Below are positions 4,970 to 21,550 of a stretch of DNA of 43,119 nt, one piece after another. The notes under the pieces were generated by a model that was given only the letters and a program-made list of their open reading frames with translations, had not been told where the DNA came from and did not search any database. The stretch's first letter is position 1; each line of letters starts with the position of its first letter. This DNA is from Isoptericola sp. (GTDB lineage: Bacteria; Actinomycetota; Actinomycetes; Actinomycetales; Cellulomonadaceae): NCBI GenBank assembly GCA_031181105.1, contig JAPSLD010000004.1:1-43119 (forward strand), read 5' to 3'. The translations under genes and the position numbers were made by a program.

Positions 4970-5989
4970 TCAGGCCCCGACGCCCTCGGCCTTCTGCGGC
5001 CGGGCGAGCAGCCCGCGCGCCATCTCGTCGACCGGCAGCCCTTCGTGGAGCACCGCGACGACCCCGGCCGTGATCGGCATGTCGACGCCGTGCTGCTGCG
5101 CGAGCTCGAGCACCGACCGGCACGACTTCACGCCCTCGGCCGTGGTCCCCGTCGCCGCCAGCGCCTCGTCGAGCGTCATGCCCTCCCCGACGTACCGCCC
5201 GAGGCGGTGGTTGCGCGACAGCGGCGAGGTGCACGTGGCCACGAGGTCACCCGTGCCGGCCAGACCGGAGAACGTCTCGACGTCGGCGCCGAGCGCGAGC
5301 CCGAGCCGCGTGATCTCGACCAGGCCGCGCGTGATGACCGTGGCCGTCGTGTTGTAGCCGAAGCCGCGCCCCTGGGCCATGCCCACGGCGAGCGCGATCA
5401 CGTTCTTCGCCGCACCGCAGAGCTCGACGCCGATGACGTCGCTGTTCGTGTACGGGCGGAAGTAGGCGTTGGAGCACGCGTCCGCGACGAACCGCGTCGC
5501 GGCGTCGTCGGTGCCCGCGACGACGGTCGCCGTCGGCTGCCGCTCGGCGATCTCGGGCGCCAGGTTGGGGCCGGAGACGACGACGACCCGGCTCTCCGGG
5601 ATCTCGAGCGCCTCGGCGATCACCTGGCTCATGCGCTCGTCGGTGCTGAGCTCGACGCCCTTCATGAGCGAGACGACGACGGCGTCCGGCTCGACGTGCG
5701 GGCGCAGTCGCTCGAGCGTGCCGCGCGCCACCTGGGACGGGACGGCGACGACGACGAGGTTCGCGCCGGCGAGCGCCGCGGCGGCGTCCGTCGTCGCCGT
5801 CATCGCCGGCAGCACGACGTCGGGCAGGTACTTGGCGTTGGTGCGCTCGTGGGTGACCTCGCGGGCGATCGCCTCGTCGCGGCCCCACAGGCGCACCTCG
5901 CAGCCGGCGTCGGCGAGCACCATGGCGAACGTGGTGCCCCACGACCCGGAGCCGAGGACGGCGGCGCGCACCGGCGTCGTGCCGGTCAC
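4970..5989 (-). CDS. gpsA: NAD(P)-dependent glycerol-3-phosphate dehydrogenase
   Basis: Reduces dihydroxyacetone phosphate to sn-glycerol-3-phosphate, the backbone for phospholipids. The 339-residue product shows the Rossmann loop VLGSGSWGTTFA (residues 11-22), the substrate lysine in SLMKGVE (K110), VVSGPNLAPEIA, the catalytic lysine in CGAAKNVIALAVG (K195), and GTGDLVATC...SRNHRLGR. The GTG start overlaps the plsC stop (GTGA, 5986-5989), so the two genes are translationally coupled; the glycerol-3-phosphate product feeds the acylation pathway in which PlsC takes part. Confidence 0.96.
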   Translation of the reverse strand: MTGTTPVRAAVLGSGSWGTTFAMVLADAGCEVRLWGRDEAIAREVTHERTNAKYLPDVVLPAMTATTDAAAALAGANLVVVAVPSQVARGTLERLRPHVEPDAVVVSLMKGVELSTDERMSQVIAEALEIPESRVVVVSGPNLAPEIAERQPTATVVAGTDDAATRFVADACSNAYFRPYTNSDVIGVELCGAAKNVIALAVGMAQGRGFGYNTTATVITRGLVEITRLGLALGADVETFSGLAGTGDLVATCTSPLSRNHRLGRYVGEGMTLDEALAATGTTAEGVKSCRSVLELAQQHGVDMPITAGVVAVLHEGLPVDEMARGLLARPQKAEGVGA

Positions 5990-6741
5990 GGGCGCTCCAC
6001 CGGGGGGTAGTGCATCTTCCTCGCCTCGTACTCGGGGTGCTTGCGCAGGTCGAACCGCGCCGCCGGCGCCGGCTCGTCCCGGAGCTCGGCCAGCAGCTCG
6101 GTGATCGCGTCCATGACCCGGTTCATCACCTCGCGCAGGGCGGCGGAGTCCACGGGCCGGTCGTACAGGTCGGACAGGTCGACCGGTGGCCCCGCGACCA
6201 TCTGCACCCGCTTGCGCGGGAACGGCTTGAGGACCCGCCCGTAGCGGCCGAGGACCTCGTGGGCACCCCACTGCGCGATCGGCACGACGGGCAGGCGCGA
6301 GGCGAGCGCGATCCGCGCCAGACCGGTCTTGGCCTCCATGGGCCACAGGTCCGGGTCACGCGTGATGGTCCCCTCGGGGAAGATCGCGACGCAGGCGCCG
6401 TCACCGAGCTGGTCGCTGGCCGCCTGGATCGAGCGGGCGGCCGCCGCGCTCCCCCGGTCGACCGGGATCATGCGCGTGGCCCGCAGCACCGAGCCGAGCA
6501 CCGGCGCCGTGAACAGGCTCCGCTTGGCCAGGATCCGCGGCTCGTACCCGTGGTCGAACAGGTAGTGCGCGAACGTCAGCGCGTCGAGCTCCGTGGCGTG
6601 GTTCGCCGCCGCGATGAAGCCGCCGCTGCGCGGCAGGTTCTCCCCGCCGCGCCACTCGTAGCGGACCATCGCGAACATGAGGCGCCGCACGAGCCAGGCG
6701 ATGGCTCGGTAGACGCGAGAGGACGGGCGGGCGATCGGCAC
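5986..6741 (-). CDS. plsC: 1-acyl-sn-glycerol-3-phosphate acyltransferase
   Basis: 251 residues, PlsC/LPLAT family. It has the acyltransferase motif NHATELD (HX4D, H48 and D53), the substrate-binding FPEGTIT motif, and VVPIAQWGAHE. It transfers an acyl chain to lysophosphatidate to make phosphatidate at the inner membrane. The C-terminus is rich in charged residues (FDLRKHPEYEARKMHYPP), usual for actinobacterial members. GTG start; TAGGCT lies 8 nt upstream, with a pyrimidine-rich gap rather than a ribosome site. First gene of a two-gene unit with gpsA. Confidence 0.93.
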   Translation of the reverse strand: MPIARPSSRVYRAIAWLVRRLMFAMVRYEWRGGENLPRSGGFIAAANHATELDALTFAHYLFDHGYEPRILAKRSLFTAPVLGSVLRATRMIPVDRGSAAAARSIQAASDQLGDGACVAIFPEGTITRDPDLWPMEAKTGLARIALASRLPVVPIAQWGAHEVLGRYGRVLKPFPRKRVQMVAGPPVDLSDLYDRPVDSAALREVMNRVMDAITELLAELRDEPAPAARFDLRKHPEYEARKMHYPPVERP

Positions 6742-13094: not shown

Positions 13095-13164
13095 GGAGCG
13101 CTCCCCGTGTCGTGTCGGTTGCGGCGGAGTCTCCAGGATGGGCAGGTCGCGCGTCGCTCGCAGG

Positions 13165-14079
13165 TCAGTCGCCGTCGCGCGACGAGGTGCGCAGCCGGCC
13201 GGTGCGGCTGCGGAGCGCCGCGACGACGGCGGCCATGTCGGCACGGTCGTGGCCGAGCGCCTCCGTCTCCGCGAACAGCTGCGCGCAGACGTCCATTAAC
13301 GGTGACGCGCTACCGGACCGGCGCGCCTCCTGGACGACGAGGCGGCTGTTCTTGAGCACGTCGGGCACGGCGGCGTGCACGGTCCAGTCCTCGTGCACCA
13401 GCTTGGCTGCCTTGGCCCGCGACACGGCCGACGCCATCGGGCCCGCACCGAGGATCTGCTCGAGCAGGCGCGCGTCGAGGCCGTGCTCCTCCGCGAAGTG
13501 GAACGACTCGGCGAGCCCGGTCACGAGCGTGATGAGGACGGTGTTGACGGCGAGCTTCATGGTCAGCGCCCCGGGCACCTGCCCGCACCGGAAGACCGCG
13601 GAGCACATCGGGTCGAGGAGCGGTGCCACCCGGTCGACGTCTGCGTCGTCGCCGGCGACCATCGCGACCAGCTCCCCGTCGGCCGCGGGCTGCCGGGAAC
13701 CGGAGACCGGTGCCTCCACGTAGTGGCCGCCGCCGTCGCGGACCCGGGCGGCCACGGCCCGGGAGTGCTCGGGGGCCACCGTGCTCATCTGCACCACGAG
13801 CCGGCCGGCGAGCTCGACCGTCCCGTCGGACCGGACGACGTCGTCGGTGGCGTGCTCGTCGGACAGCATGAGGAACACCACCTCGCACCGCTCGAAGACC
13901 TCGGCCGCCGAGCCGGCGACGTCCGCGCCCGCGCGCGCCAGCCGGTCGCTCGCGGCGGCCGTCCTGTTCCAGACGAGCAGCGGCCGCGTCGCGACCAGGT
14001 TCGCCGCCATGGCGGACCCCATCACGCCGAGACCGATGAACCCGACGTCGGGCTCCCCTCGCCCCGCTCCGGCAGTCAC
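13165..14079 (-). CDS. 3-hydroxyisobutyrate dehydrogenase-like beta-hydroxyacid dehydrogenase
   Basis: 304 residues. N-terminal Rossmann domain GFIGLGVMGSAMAANL, the NADP-type loop WNRTAAASDRL, VQMSTVAPEHS, the substrate-binding EAPVSGSRQPAADGELVAMVAGD, and the catalytic lysine in ALTMKLAVNTVLI; C-terminal helical domain. Relatives include HIBADH, tartronate semialdehyde reductase, GLYR-type reductases and imine reductases. The start is GTG 14079: an ideal AGGAGGAGG lies 7 nt upstream and itself sits inside the alternative ATG-initiated reading from 14100. Contains one TTA leucine codon (13297-13299). Divergent from the MocR regulator, which probably controls it. Confidence 0.88.
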   Translation of the reverse strand: MTAGAGRGEPDVGFIGLGVMGSAMAANLVATRPLLVWNRTAAASDRLARAGADVAGSAAEVFERCEVVFLMLSDEHATDDVVRSDGTVELAGRLVVQMSTVAPEHSRAVAARVRDGGGHYVEAPVSGSRQPAADGELVAMVAGDDADVDRVAPLLDPMCSAVFRCGQVPGALTMKLAVNTVLITLVTGLAESFHFAEEHGLDARLLEQILGAGPMASAVSRAKAAKLVHEDWTVHAAVPDVLKNSRLVVQEARRSGSASPLMDVCAQLFAETEALGHDRADMAAVVAALRSRTGRLRTSSRDGD

Positions 14080-14086
14080 CGTCCGA

Positions 14087-14095
14087 CCTCCTCCT
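14087..14095 (-). promoter_or_regulatory. Ribosome binding site that fixes the reductase start
   Basis: AGGAGGAGG on the minus strand, 7 nt before GTG 14079. The ATG at 14100 would place this site inside the coding sequence. Confidence 0.8.
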
Positions 14096-14208
14096 GTCAT
14101 CGCTCGTGTCGTCGCTCGTGTCGTCGCTCGAGCCGTCCCGCGCGGCGCCCCCGCGCGACACCCGGTCGGTGCGGTCCGATCCCACCCCATCCAGTCGGCC
14201 GCGGCGCG

Positions 14209-14230
14209 GTCCAGTCCGCGCATACTGGAC
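14209..14230. promoter_or_regulatory. Candidate MocR operator overlapping the mocR promoter
   Basis: Perfect inverted repeat GTCCAGT-N8-ACTGGAC in the divergent intergenic region. The right arm overlaps CATACT (14221-14226), a -10-like hexamer 6 nt before the ATG at 14233. A further half-site ATCCAGTC lies at 14190-14197. CTGGAC is the core I recall for TauR-type MocR regulators. Confidence 0.65.
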
Positions 14231-14232
14231 TC

Positions 14233-15678
14233 ATGCCAGGACCGGTCCGACGGCTGTCGGCGCGTGAGCTCCTCGTCCTCGTGGGTGACCTGAGACCCGG
14301 CACGAGCGCGTACCGGGCGCTCGCCGACCGGATCCGGCTGCTCATCACCGACGGCCGGATCCCGGCCGGCACCCGCCTGCCGTCCGAGCGCGAGCTCGCC
14401 GCCGTGGCGGGACGGAGCCGGACGACGGTCGTGGCCGCCTACCGCTCCCTCCGGGAGTCCGGTCACGTCGTCACCCGGCACGGCTCCGGGAGCCTGGCGG
14501 CACTGCCGGCGCCGGGGACACCGCAGGGGCGCCCCGACCGCGGGGTCGACTTCGCCCGGGCGGTCCCGCCACCGGTCGAGGGCCTGGAGGAGATCCTCGC
14601 AGAGGTGTCGGCACGGATGGTCCGGGCGCTCGAGGGCCCGGGCTTCGACCTGCTGGGCAACGAGGCGCTCCGGCAGGCGATCGCGGACCGCTACACCGTG
14701 CGCGGCCTCGCCACGTCCGCGGACCAGGTCCTGGTGACCATGGGCGGCCAGCACGCCATCTCGCTCACGGCCCACACGTTCCTCTCCCGGTCGGACCTGG
14801 TCCTCGTCGAGTCGCCCGGCTACCCGCACGCCTACGAGGCGCTGCGGCGCGCGGGGGCGCGCCTGGTCACGACGCCGGTCACGACCGACGGGTGGGACGT
14901 CGAGCACCTGCTGGGCTCGATCCGGCGGCTGCGTCCCGCCGCCGCCTACCTGATCCCCGACTTCCACAACCCGACCGGCGCCTCCATGCGGCCACAGGAC
15001 CGGGCGCGGGTGGCCGAGGCGGCGCGTGCCGTGGGCACGGTGCTGATCATCGACGAGACCACCGCCGACCTGGGCATCGACCGGGCGTGGGACGACGGCC
15101 CGTTCGCCCGGCACGGGCACGCCGCCTCGCCGGGGTCCGGCTCCGGCGTCGTCACGATCGGGTCGCTCAGCAAGTCCGTCTGGGGAGGTCTGCGGCTCGG
15201 ATGGGTCCGCGCCGACGCCTCGGCCGTGCGCCGGCTCGTCCAGGCGCGCCCGGCCGGCGACCTCGGCACGCCGCAGCTGGAACAGCTGCTCGGCGAGCGG
15301 ATCGTCCGCGCGCTGCCGGAGCTGCTGCCGCGCCGCCGCGAGCTCCTGCGCGCGCACCGGGCGGCGTTGAGCGCGGCCCTGGCACGGCACCTCCCCCGGT
15401 GGCACGCGCCGTGGCCCGACGGCGGTCTGTCGATGTGGGTGCAGCTCGACCGTCCCGGCAGCTCGGCGCTGACGTCGGTCTGCGAGGCACGGGGCCTGTC
15501 CCTCGTCGCCGGGCCCCGGTTCTCCGTCGACGGGACGTTCGAGCGGTTCCTGCGCCTCCCGTTCACGTCACCGGTCGCCGACCTGGACGCGGGGGTGCGC
15601 TCGCTCGCGGAGTCGTGGGAGTTGCTCTCGTCCCGGCGACCGCTCGGCCACCGCTCCCGGATGCCCGAGATGGTCTGA
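14233..15678 (+). CDS. MocR family (GntR-HTH/aminotransferase-like) PLP-dependent regulator
   Basis: 481 residues. An N-terminal GntR winged helix (residues about 24-90, with GTRLPSERELAAVAGRSRTTVVAAYRSL) is joined to a fold-type I aminotransferase domain with FHNPTGASM, the cofactor aspartate in IIDETTADL (D274) and the PLP lysine in GSLSKSVWGGLRLGW (K314). The cofactor lysine is kept, so the regulator should sense PLP or a PLP adduct with an amino compound. Probable leaderless start. Divergent from a beta-hydroxyacid dehydrogenase and followed by a membrane-protein gene; CTGGAC-type repeats occur on both sides. No aminotransferase gene of its own is nearby. Confidence 0.93.
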   Translation: MPGPVRRLSARELLVLVGDLRPGTSAYRALADRIRLLITDGRIPAGTRLPSERELAAVAGRSRTTVVAAYRSLRESGHVVTRHGSGSLAALPAPGTPQGRPDRGVDFARAVPPPVEGLEEILAEVSARMVRALEGPGFDLLGNEALRQAIADRYTVRGLATSADQVLVTMGGQHAISLTAHTFLSRSDLVLVESPGYPHAYEALRRAGARLVTTPVTTDGWDVEHLLGSIRRLRPAAAYLIPDFHNPTGASMRPQDRARVAEAARAVGTVLIIDETTADLGIDRAWDDGPFARHGHAASPGSGSGVVTIGSLSKSVWGGLRLGWVRADASAVRRLVQARPAGDLGTPQLEQLLGERIVRALPELLPRRRELLRAHRAALSAALARHLPRWHAPWPDGGLSMWVQLDRPGSSALTSVCEARGLSLVAGPRFSVDGTFERFLRLPFTSPVADLDAGVRSLAESWELLSSRRPLGHRSRMPEMV

Positions 15679-15681
15679 GCC

Positions 15682-15710
15682 GGACCAGTCCACCGCACCC
15701 TGACTGGACC
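15682..15710. promoter_or_regulatory. Second CTGGAC inverted repeat, downstream of mocR
   Basis: GGACCAGTC (15682-15690) and GACTGGACC (15702-15710) form an 8-of-9 inverted repeat with 11 nt between. It could be a MocR operator for the membrane-protein gene at 15762, a weak terminator of mocR, or both. Confidence 0.5.
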
Positions 15711-15761
15711 GCGTGGCCGTCCGTACGTCGTGGTCTCCTGGTCGGCGACGGAGGGGGCGAC

Positions 15762-16433
15762 ATGCGCAGGACCGGCACCAGCGCGGACGGACGGGGCGCC
15801 GCGGACGGAGGACGCACCGCCGGCCCCCAGCCACCACCACTCGGGGGCCGAGGCGACCCGCTCTTCGGCGCGGGCGCGACGCGCGTCGAGAAGGTCCTCG
15901 CGTCCGGCGCCGGCCTGCTCGGCGCCCTGCTCGTGGCGGGGGCGGCGGCCGCGCAGGGTTCCGGGTGGAGCGCCGCGCAGTACGCCGTCGCGGTGGTCGT
16001 CGCGTTCGACGTGGTCGGCGGGGTCGTCGCGAACGGGCTCGGCTCGGCCAAGCGGGACCACTTCGGGCCCGCGTCGGCGACGGCGCGGACGGCGGCCGGG
16101 CGAGTCGCGCGGAGGCCGGTCGTGTTCACCGCGCTGCACGTGCACCCGATCGTCGTCGCGCTGCTCTACGACCCCGTCGTCTGGTGGTGGGGGGTGGCGT
16201 GGTACCTGGTGACACTGGTCGGCTCGGCCCTCGTGCGGCTGAGTCCCCTGTACCTGCAGCGGCCGGTCGCGCTCGCGTGGTGCGCCCTCGCGGCCGTCGG
16301 CGCCTCGTTCCTGCCGTCCCCGGCGCACTGGGGGTGGCTGCCGGTCGTCCTCGTGCTCAAGCTCGTGCTCGCGCACGCGGTCCAGGAGGAGCCGTACCGC
16401 CCGGCGTCGCGCCTGGGGGCGTCACGCCGATGA
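15762..16433 (+). CDS. Conserved integral membrane protein of unknown function
   Basis: 223 residues. A polar N-terminus (about 35 residues) ends in GDPLFGAGATRVEKVL, followed by four to five predicted helices: SGAGLLGALLVAGAAAA, AVAVVVAFDVVGGVVANGL, VVFTALHVHPIVVALLY with VVWWWGVAWYLVTLVGSAL, and LAWCALAAVGASFL/WLPVVLVLKLVLAHAV. The D-V-V-G-G-V-V-A-N and ALHVHP segments look familiar from uncharacterised actinobacterial membrane proteins, but I cannot name a family. GGAGGGGG at 15750-15757 is the ribosome site. Translationally coupled to the next small gene. Confidence 0.8.
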   Translation: MRRTGTSADGRGAADGGRTAGPQPPPLGGRGDPLFGAGATRVEKVLASGAGLLGALLVAGAAAAQGSGWSAAQYAVAVVVAFDVVGGVVANGLGSAKRDHFGPASATARTAAGRVARRPVVFTALHVHPIVVALLYDPVVWWWGVAWYLVTLVGSALVRLSPLYLQRPVALAWCALAAVGASFLPSPAHWGWLPVVLVLKLVLAHAVQEEPYRPASRLGASRR

Positions 16434-16591
16434 ACCGGCTCGCCAGCTCGAGAAGGACGCCCCAGGGGATTCGCAGCGTCGCGGTGCTCGCCGCCGCGTT
16501 GGCGCTGTTCGCCACGACGTTCACGCTTCCCGACGCGCCGACGGAGCCCGTCCGCACCGATCTCCTGCCAGAGACCGTCATGGCACCGTGA
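16430..16591 (+). CDS. 53-residue single-pass small protein
   Basis: The ATG overlaps the stop of the preceding gene (ATGA at 16430-16433), so it is probably made by translational coupling. The product has a basic N-terminus (MNRLASSRRTPQGIR), one hydrophobic segment SVAVLAAALALFATTFTL, and a short acidic tail PDAPTEPVRTDLLPETVMAP. It may be an accessory subunit or a secreted/anchored peptide working with the membrane protein. I recognise no family. Confidence 0.6.
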   Translation: MNRLASSRRTPQGIRSVAVLAAALALFATTFTLPDAPTEPVRTDLLPETVMAP

Positions 16592-16620
16592 TCGGAAGCC
16601 CGACCCGACCGCGACGGGCC

Positions 16621-16626
16621 TAGACT
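16621..16626 (+). promoter_or_regulatory. -10 element of the pentapeptide-repeat gene
   Basis: TAGACT, 42 bp before the GTG at 16669; here the transcript has a leader with AGGAGG at 16656-16661. Confidence 0.5.
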
Positions 16627-16668
16627 GCTCCGCGCGCCCGATCCCCGCGGGCGTGAGGAGGCGACCGC

Positions 16669-17550
16669 GTGACCGAGCTACCGCACGAGACGCGGGACAC
16701 GCCGCCGCCCCCGCCCGCCCCGGGCGGCCGGCGAGAGCTCGAGCTGGCCGAGGCGCGCCAGGACCTGCGCGCGGACTGCAGCCGTTGCGTGGCCCTGTGC
16801 TGCGTCGCACCGGTGTTCGTCGCCTCAGCGGACTTCGCGCTCGACAAGCCGGCAGGCGTGCCCTGTCCCAACCTCCGGGGCGACGACCGCTGCGGGATCC
16901 ACGCGAAGCTCCGGAGCCGGGGGTTCGCGGGGTGCGCGGTCTTCGACTGCTTCGGCGCCGGCCAGCGCGTCACCGCACTGTTCGCCGGGTCCACGTGGCG
17001 TGACTCGCCGCAGGACGCGGCGGCCATGTTCGGCGCCCTGGACGTGCTCCGTCAGCTGCACGAGGCCCTGTGGTACCTGCGCGAGGCCGCGCACCTCGTC
17101 CCCCGCGGCCCGCTGCACGACCTCGTCGACGCCCTGATCGGGACGACCGAGGGCCTGGCCGCGAGCGACGCCGCCACCCTCGCCGACATCGACACCGGCA
17201 CCTACCGCCGCGAGGTCGGCGACCTGCTCGCCGACGTCAGCGCGGCGGTGCGCGCCCCGGGCGGCCGGCGCTGGGCGGGCAGGGACCTCGTCGGCGCACG
17301 GCTGCGCGGCGCGGACCTCCGGGAGGCCGACCTCCGCGGCGCGTATGCCATCGGGGCCGACCTGCGCGACGCCGACCTGCGCCGCTGCGACCTGCTCGGC
17401 GCCGACCTCCGTGGTGCGGACCTCGCCGGCGCCCGCCTCGACGGCGCCCTCTTCCTCACCCAGCCCCAGGTCGAGGCGGCACAGGGCGACCCGCGGACCA
17501 CCCTGCCGGCGGGGCTCGCCCGGCCGGGCCACTGGTCCGCCGGACGGTAG
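16669..17550 (+). CDS. Cysteine-rich pentapeptide-repeat protein
   Basis: 293 residues in two parts. Residues about 35-110 hold clustered cysteines: [27 protein letters not shown], a pattern able to bind zinc or an iron-sulfur cluster and similar to YkgJ-type cysteine domains. A helical linker with [17 protein letters not shown] follows. Residues about 200-260 are pentapeptide repeats of the A(D/R)LR(G/D/E) type ([16 protein letters not shown] ... [18 protein letters not shown]), forming a short right-handed beta-helix. Family-wide function is unknown; the beta-helix may mediate protein contacts. GTG start chosen from AGGAGG 7 nt upstream. Confidence 0.85.
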
Positions 17551-17579
17551 CGGCACAGGCCGGTCCCAGGTCGACCGCG

Positions 17580-20869: not shown

Positions 20870-21550
20870 ATGTGTCAACAGGTGAGTGAGCACCTCCGTC
20901 CGACGAGCCCGCGCCCGTACCGGATGCGCAAGCGGGCCGCCGACGTCGAGCACACCCGGCAGCGCATCGTCGAGGCGACGGTCCAGCTGCACCGGACCGA
21001 GGGCCTGGACGCCTCGTACAGCGACATCGCGGCCCGGGCGGGCGTCACGCGTGCGACGCTGTACCGGCACTTCCCCGACACCGAGTCGCTGTTCCAGGCG
21101 TGCTCGGCGCACTGGATCGCCGCGCAGGTGCCGCCCGACCCGCAGCGGTGGACCGGTAACACGCCGCCCGAGCGGCTGCGAGCGGCGCTCGGCGACGTCT
21201 ACCGGTACTACGCCGACGGCGCGGACATGCTCCGCAACGTCGAGCGGGCCCAACCCACGATGCCCGCGGCGCTCGCCGAGCAGATCCGGCACACCGAGGC
21301 CGCGCTCCGCGAGGCCCTCCTCGACGCGCTCCCCCGGAACGCCCGGCACCGACCGCGGGTCACCGCCGTCGTCGGGCACGTCCTGGCGTTCTCGACGTGG
21401 CACTCGCTCGTGCTGGAGCACGGCGTCGCCCGGGACGACGCGGTCGAGCTCATGGCGCGGCTCGTCGAGACGGCGGAGGCGGACCCGGAGAGGCCCGGAT
21501 CCGCGGAGCTCCGCGGGTCCGGGCCTCTCACCAGGTGCTACGGCCGGTGA
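20870..21550 (+). CDS. TetR/AcrR family transcriptional regulator
   Basis: 226 residues from ATG 20870; starts at GTG 20882 or ATG 20924 are equally possible because none has a clear ribosome site. The N-terminal HTH is RQRIVEATVQLHRTEGLDASYSDIAARAGVTRATLYRHFPDTESLF, and the C-terminal ligand domain is all-helical. The last 20 codons are unusual: SAELRGSGPL is encoded by a long perfect hairpin, so the original stop may have been lost. Divergent from the MBL hydrolase. Confidence 0.87.
   Translation: MCQQVSEHLRPTSPRPYRMRKRAADVEHTRQRIVEATVQLHRTEGLDASYSDIAARAGVTRATLYRHFPDTESLFQACSAHWIAAQVPPDPQRWTGNTPPERLRAALGDVYRYYADGADMLRNVERAQPTMPAALAEQIRHTEAALREALLDALPRNARHRPRVTAVVGHVLAFSTWHSLVLEHGVARDDAVELMARLVETAEADPERPGSAELRGSGPLTRCYGR
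21488..21529 (-). terminator. Large hairpin inside the 3' end of tetR, probable lpdA terminator
   Basis: Outer 12-bp arms (21488-21499 and 21518-21529) enclose a 16-bp self-complementary core (21501-21516). It lies 36 nt beyond the lpdA stop on the minus strand but wholly within the convergent tetR frame. Confidence 0.75.

Follow-up and report, generated by a model that had tools for sequence, protein, structure and literature searches.

The window analysed here is a 43,119-nt stretch of Isoptericola sp. DNA (assembly GCA_031181105.1, contig JAPSLD010000004.1, positions 1 to 43,119). It contains yczR, a gene for a regulator of the MocR family, flanked by a divergent beta-hydroxyacid dehydrogenase gene and by the gene of a membrane protein (Table 1). 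Predicted operators stand directly before and directly behind yczR. The genes and the CTGGAC repeats named in a first-pass annotation of this DNA are all present. The genome itself (G000) comprises 2.75 Mb in 272 contigs and is 74% complete.

Table 1. Features at the yczR locus (window coordinates)
Feature	Position	Strand	Basis or remark
Islet of 4.4 kb between SDR gene and MarP-family protease gene	13126-17552		missing in congener G001
Beta-hydroxyacid dehydrogenase, divergent from yczR, GTG start	13165-14079	-	Pfam, PDB relatives, motifs
Third box ATCCAGT	14189-14195	+	direct repeat 20 bp upstream of GTCCAGT; not in the first-pass annotation
Operator 1, GTCCAGT (14209-14215)-N8-ACTGGAC (14224-14230)	14209-14230		perfect repeat over presumed yczR promoter
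Putative -10 hexamer CATACT, leaderless yczR transcript	14221-14226	+	sequence reading; inference
yczR-type MocR regulator, GntR winged helix and aminotransferase-like domain	14233-15678	+	NF052290 match, Asp274/Lys314
Operator 2, GTCCAC (15688-15693)-N10-CTGGAC (15704-15709), 9 nt past yczR stop	15688-15709		geometry of operator 1
Membrane protein, family without Pfam or NCBIfam model	15762-16433	+	conserved D83, G86, G87, R98, H126, P129, K200, H205 (alignment A4)
53-aa protein, one hydrophobic segment (13-35)	16430-16591	+	ATGA overlap with membrane-protein stop
Pentapeptide-repeat protein, N-terminal cysteines	16669-17550	+	Pfam PF00805; within islet

The regulator and its relatives

The regulator scores 548 bits against the YczR model NF052290 (NCBIfam; cut-off 487.4) and so passes it; it falls far under the cut-offs of the PdxR, rhizopine MocR, EhuR, PtsJ and GabR models. 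Mapping places the residues that bind pyridoxal phosphate (PLP) at Asp274 and Lys314, both invariant in alignment A2; the role of this aspartate and lysine in YczR is taken from Milano et al. (2016, PMC4944035). Mapped by eye against the same paper, the winged helix has Glu52-Arg53, and the floor motif reads Ile-Asp274-Glu-Thr against Val-Asp-Glu plus Thr, Ile replacing Val.

Milano et al. described YczR with a divergent yczE gene (PMC4944035). We compared 128 yczR loci, the window and its sister species (G015) included and a single species possibly present twice, and yczE is divergent from yczR in 103 of them. L050 and L051 were counted as non-yczE by a distance rule, yet a yczE-like gene was seen beside both in a 49-locus comparison (30 loci plus 19 stretches, window included). 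The divergent genes of this smaller set are homologous to one another in 44 loci, the five loci without the gene being the window, two copies of the G015 ortholog, L020 and L043; the two canonical divergent proteins that were scored both pass the YczE model NF052291. No divergent yczE is found beside the window's yczR; the dehydrogenase stands there. The same genome and G015 each carry a second yczR with a yczE-type gene alongside (L035, L036). YczR-like copies with no neighbouring yczE were also seen outside the clade described next, in L043 (G054) and in the Streptomyces loci L136, L146 and L148.

In a midpoint-rooted tree of 60 rows (every third yczE-type row used; L020 and L051 omitted), a branch with support 99/96 separates eight regulators from the rest. 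This clade consists of the window, G015, Leucobacter chromiisoli (L069), Microbacterium yannicii (L070), Blastococcus (L071), a Leucobacter metagenome-assembled genome (L141) and loci from two further genomes of the same order (L193 and L194; G795 and G878). L069, L070 and L071, the only other members scored, also pass NF052290. The seven regulators that have a divergent dehydrogenase group with support 100/99. In the same tree the Cellulomonas alba locus L147 clusters with the window's family, taken to be Cellulomonadaceae. The clade adjoins Mycolicibacterium palauense, inside a group dominated by rows from Microbacteriaceae and Arthrobacter. Because the tree places it away from the canonical Cellulomonadaceae YczRs, the window's yczR copy was probably acquired from outside its family. 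We note that the yczR/yczE pair of L094, whose record bears the title Vibrio cholerae strain 35D, clusters with Arthrobacter, probably through contamination or mislabelling.

Predicted operators in the window and across the clade

Operator 1 abuts the ATG of yczR, which looks like a leaderless start. The first-pass annotation had described this repeat correctly: it is perfect and, by sequence reading, its second arm overlaps the -10-like CATACT, which is six bases from the ATG. No promoter was detected when 14060-16000 was scanned for the sigma-70 consensus. A second CTGGAC inverted repeat had been placed before the membrane-protein gene; the repeat is real and is located there, but its pairing (15682-15710), which we read as GACCAGT-N13-ACTGGAC, has been replaced by that in Table 1, because G015 conserves GTCCA rather than GACCAGT and because the new pairing has the spacing of operator 1. 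The geometry common to both operators is GTCCAS-N10-CTGGAC.

The window contains two matches to GTCCAG-N4..20-CTGGAC against 0.06 expected, a count reached in none of 100 shuffles; one match is operator 1 and the other, at 20981, is unrelated. With up to two mismatches to the 7+7 repeat and spacers of 7-8, exactly operators 1 and 2 are recovered in the 43-kb window, compared with a mean of 0.28 sites and a maximum of 2 in 60 simulated windows under the same criterion, the 7+7 pattern having been selected after the sites had been seen. Across the genome, GTCCAS-N9..10-CTGGAC is located in three places: operators 1 and 2 and the start of a coding gene read as pheS. G015 has six, namely the two orthologous operators, the pheS site, two in or near coding frames and one at a contig end. 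A reversed control pattern gives more strand-wise matches (12 vs 4 in G000, 15 vs 10 in G015). The pattern by itself is therefore not rare, and it is placement and conservation that carry the evidence. Between the window and G015 the boxes of operator 1 are identical at 14/14 positions (75/139 in the rest of the intergenic region) and those of operator 2 at 11/12 (54/71 in the surroundings).

The window boxes resemble the YczR motif reported for Gammaproteobacteria, GTCCACT / ACTGGAC / GTCCATT, the actinobacterial motif being GGCCA-N12-TGGCC (PMC4944035). The two paralogues of this one genome differ in their boxes, with GGCCAAT/AGTGGAC at the yczE copy vs GTCCAGT/ACTGGAC at the window copy. 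The first-pass annotation had taken CTGGAC to indicate a TauR-like factor, and a regulon of TauR type, serving taurine or a similar sulfonate, could be proposed on the ground that CTGGAC is part of the TauR consensus, whose sites are direct repeats of CTGGACYTAA (Suvorova and Rodionov 2016, PMC5320631). We find this assignment barely credible: the best of the models scored for the regulator is YczR, the boxes form inverted pairs with no YTAA tail, and no taurine gene is found among the seven proteins scanned at 12.2-18.8 kb.

The sites were then sought in the other members by counting mismatches, with P taken from 2000 shuffles (floor 0.0005). The pattern comes from the window and the spacers from the window, G015 and two L070 sites (before its cupin and thioesterase genes); P values for these are not independent, and those for the remaining loci are nearly so. 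An operator is located before the yczR ATG in 8/8 clade members, with no mismatch in the window and G015, one in L141 and L071, two in L069 and L070, three in L194 and four in L193 (P 0.0005-0.002 in six members, 0.0115 in L194 and 0.06 in L193). The yczE-type controls have two mismatches here in 3/103 and three in 17/103, as expected for a related motif. Six of the seven other members (G015, L069, L141, L071, L193 and L194) have an exact ATCCAAT that precedes the first box by 30-31 bp; no upstream third box is found in L070.

Behind yczR a site lies 2-10 nt past the stop in the window, G015, L069 and L193 (2, 1, 3 and 1 mismatches; P 0.0005-0.0145) and more weakly in L141, in at least three genera. 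Six members have an SDR (short-chain dehydrogenase/reductase) or membrane gene downstream, and 4/6 have this second operator at three mismatches or fewer. None of the 102 testable yczE-type controls (of 103) does so, their counts being four mismatches in 4, five in 16, six in 68 and seven in 14. L070 and L071 have six mismatches each. The cupin, SDR and membrane genes of L070 are on the dehydrogenase strand, and sites precede its cupin (one mismatch) and thioesterase (three) genes instead of a 3′ site. An inverted repeat directly past a stop codon might alternatively be a transcription terminator or processing hairpin of yczR, and the L069 arms do form a 5-bp stem in the predicted fold. Folding is no better than that of shuffles in 4/4 loci (z 0.23 to 0.88), however, no terminator-like site occurs in 14060-16000, and the letters of site 2 match operator 1; we regard a terminator as very improbable.

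The genes and their recurrence

The divergent dehydrogenase occurs in seven genomes (the window, G015, L069, L070, L141, L193 and L194) and the membrane-protein family in five of these, window included. A scan of genome contigs confirmed at least 588 relatives, of which the best 80 were kept; among these, L069, L070 and L141 have both the divergent dehydrogenase (63-65% to the window's) and a membrane-protein homologue (57-62%). With the L070 dehydrogenase as query, five of 248 genomes of the order gave a match at 1e-70, which added G795 and G878. Both have a clade yczR, a gene like those for coenzyme A (CoA) transferases behind the dehydrogenase (confirmed by Pfam in L193) and an SDR downstream of yczR.

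The accompanying enzymes vary. On one strand L070 carries the dehydrogenase, a flavin adenine dinucleotide (FAD) monooxygenase, a hotdog thioesterase, a cupin, an SDR, the membrane protein and a serine hydrolase, with a partial CoA-transferase-like gene on the opposite strand at the locus end. L069 has a CoA-transferase and the dehydrogenase on one side, and a cupin, an SDR, the membrane protein, an alpha/beta hydrolase and a CMD-family protein on the other. The L141 set is dehydrogenase, SDR and membrane protein. In G482 (L192) the membrane protein, an SDR, a CoA-transferase and a TetR gene are found, with no yczR in the 16 kb covered. Dehydrogenase homologues in G030, G031, G044, G063, G069 and G240 (45-56%) were set aside; none has a yczR of the clade as its neighbour. 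The G063 homologue lies about 7 kb from a canonical yczR, and G030 holds a second match (38%).

A short open reading frame with one hydrophobic stretch and a DDYDTRRP-like tail was also seen between yczR and the dehydrogenase in L069 (5595-5810), L141 (3105-3386) and L070 (about 5750-5990), and alone in L071 (1395-1568). Visual inspection suggests that a remnant of this tail may survive in G015 and, less clearly, in the window, where a TCGCTCGTGTCG repeat lies near 14100-14140.

The dehydrogenase has the Pfam domains NAD_binding_2 and NAD_binding_11, and reaches none of the NCBIfam equivalog cut-offs. Its best PDB relatives are 3doj, 3pef, 3pdu and 2uyy, listed under the names dehydrogenase-like protein, 3-hydroxyisobutyrate dehydrogenase family protein and N-PAC. 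We take 3doj to be a plant GLYR1, 3pef and 3pdu to be Geobacter succinic-semialdehyde reductases and 2uyy to be human NPAC. The enzyme appears closest to the glyoxylate/succinic-semialdehyde reductases (GLYR-type), with the cofactor loop GLGVMG at 16, PVSGSRQPA at 124 and Lys175, the presumed catalytic lysine, in MKLAVN; the PVSGSxxPA motif and the lysine fit this type.

Pfam and NCBIfam gave nothing above cut-off for 19 sequences of the membrane-protein family, and a profile of these 19 gave no credible match in the PDB (best E 0.41). An AlphaFold model from four sequences has five long and three short helices, some six of them membrane-like; with a mean predicted local distance difference test score of 56.6, its quality does not suffice for fold searching. 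Only two hydrophobic stretches emerge from a Kyte-Doolittle scan at 1.6. Charged conserved residues next to the hydrophobic stretches suggest a membrane enzyme or carrier. The family is found in 3/78 relatives and 18/394 genomes of the class (own genome counted in both), and the L070 protein as query matches in 3/299 genomes of the family of G067. In 16 family neighbourhoods inspected by eye (L166-L181), a TetR-type gene directly adjoins in 14, five of which were scored and confirmed by Pfam. Five neighbourhoods have an F420-type reductase-like gene near the family member (by eye; one confirmed), and one has a FAD monooxygenase 35% similar to that of L070.

The 53-aa protein had been proposed as a small partner of the membrane protein. 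The ATGA coupling is present. Its G015 ortholog has 52 aa (41/52 identical), and the protein is otherwise not found among 231 loci (tblastn, E 1e-3), although its short length may hide matches. A distribution limited to these two speaks against its being a core component of the module. A comparison of these two genomes puts the ratio of nonsynonymous to synonymous substitution at about 0.25 in yczR and in the dehydrogenase gene, about 0.49 in the membrane-protein gene and about 0.39 in the 53-aa frame; all four therefore appear to be maintained as coding genes, with weaker constraint on the last two.

The genes lie in the islet of Table 1, whose G+C (0.759) differs little from that of the rest (0.738). 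In G001 the SDR (92%) directly adjoins MarP, with about 31 bp where the islet stands in the window; in three other congeners MarP lacks that SDR as a neighbour. The islet may have been gained in the lineage of the window or lost from G001; the tree favours gain. The pentapeptide-repeat gene is found only in G000 and G015 among 18 genomes of the genus, with a patchy match in 23/78 relatives, and no sign was seen that it belongs to the regulon.

Proposed control of the module and known systems

Our interpretation is that a YczR-family regulator with no adjoining yczE controls a small metabolic module instead, and we put its probability at roughly 70%. Because matching DNA sites mark both neighbours, the regulator of this small group of soil actinobacteria probably runs the module, which is hitherto undescribed. 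The proposal in the first-pass annotation that dehydrogenase, regulator and membrane protein form one regulon finds support in the sequence comparison, and the gene order and repeats, whose recurrence in other actinobacterial genera had been set beforehand as a check, do recur.

Several observations weigh against this interpretation. The 5′ site of L193 is weak. The site behind yczR has four mismatches in L141 (P 0.12), a level matched by 4/102 controls, and five in L194, although an SDR gene follows in both. No membrane-protein match is found in L193 or L194, the L193 contig ending 1.3 kb after the SDR, and homologues elsewhere sit with TetR genes. The window has none of the SDR, cupin and CoA-transferase of its relatives nearby; the best SDR match in its genome (50%) is on a 4.2-kb contig with no operator-like site, and the best CoA-transferase match is partial (36%).

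A sparer account would make operator 1 a site of plain yczR autoregulation, with the dehydrogenase and membrane genes as passengers and site 2 a chance match or decayed copy. L071 is consistent with this, having a clade yczR and operator 1 with neither gene in 9 kb (its contig ends 1.6 kb past yczR on the divergent side), as are the missing or weak second sites of L194 and L141 and the pattern matches elsewhere in the genomes. It is hard to reconcile with the recurrence of site 2 in four loci and its absence, at three mismatches or fewer, from the controls, with the L070 sites placed before cupin and thioesterase genes instead, and with a dehydrogenase kept in seven genomes; we judge autoregulation alone unlikely.

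If YczR does control the module, it would bind GTCCAGT/ACTGGAC-type boxes at two operators. The pair in operator 1 overlies the -10 presumed for a leaderless yczR transcript and would cause autorepression, and the third box, 20-31 bp upstream, would reach toward the dehydrogenase promoter. Operator 2 would govern the membrane-protein transcript, or in relatives an operon of cupin, SDR and membrane-protein genes. GabR and PdxR suggest by analogy how the module would be switched: the dimer would move between box pairs when an amino compound or PLP occupies the aminotransferase-like domain. The GLYR-like reductase would, with the enzymes added in relatives (SDR, family III CoA-transferase, cupin and in one case FAD monooxygenase plus thioesterase), turn over a small aldehyde or hydroxy acid connected with the amino compound. 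We give a small chance to the further idea that clade YczRs sense the same amino compound as their yczE-linked relatives, the membrane-protein family being an alternative to YczE for handling it. In that case the module would be the first YczR regulon to include enzymes, working through a previously undescribed dehydrogenase/SDR/CoA-transferase route, and its substrate would reveal both what the YczR family senses and what YczE does.

YczR has been listed as a putative regulator of yczE (PMC6677901). In the papers on YczR consulted, the work is computational and gives neither an effector nor a function for YczE; neither name occurs in the main text of PMC5320631. No report of a YczR regulon without yczE was met in the literature searched, whose scope excluded most subscription journals and the supplementary tables of PMC5320631. 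A clade with enzymes in place of yczE thus offers a direct way to the YczR effector, and two YczR paralogues with different boxes in one genome make a clean case for operator specificity.

The dehydrogenase shares the PVSGSxxPA motif and the lysine of MKLxVN with the glyoxylate/succinic semialdehyde reductases 3doj, 3pef and 3pdu; it differs in being linked here to a MocR factor and, in relatives, also to an SDR and a CoA-transferase. In Cupriavidus necator a MocR homologue is divergent from the mmsA1 operon, and the 3-hydroxyisobutyrate dehydrogenase is in a separate operon beside an AraC-type gene (PMC6572756). The commonest MocR layout is two direct boxes plus one inverted box (32% of regulons), and in characterised motifs two or three turns separate the direct repeats (PMC5320631). 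The window boxes share this layout with GabR/PdxR-type regulons; unlike these, the regulator belongs to another subfamily and no gab or pdx gene is found among the seven proteins scanned. With the YczR-YczE pairs it shares the regulator family, the PLP lysine and aspartate, GTCCACT/ACTGGAC-like boxes and a site just before the regulator gene. Unlike those pairs, the window has a divergent dehydrogenase and a second operator behind yczR, and yczE is located elsewhere in the genome with a YczR of its own.

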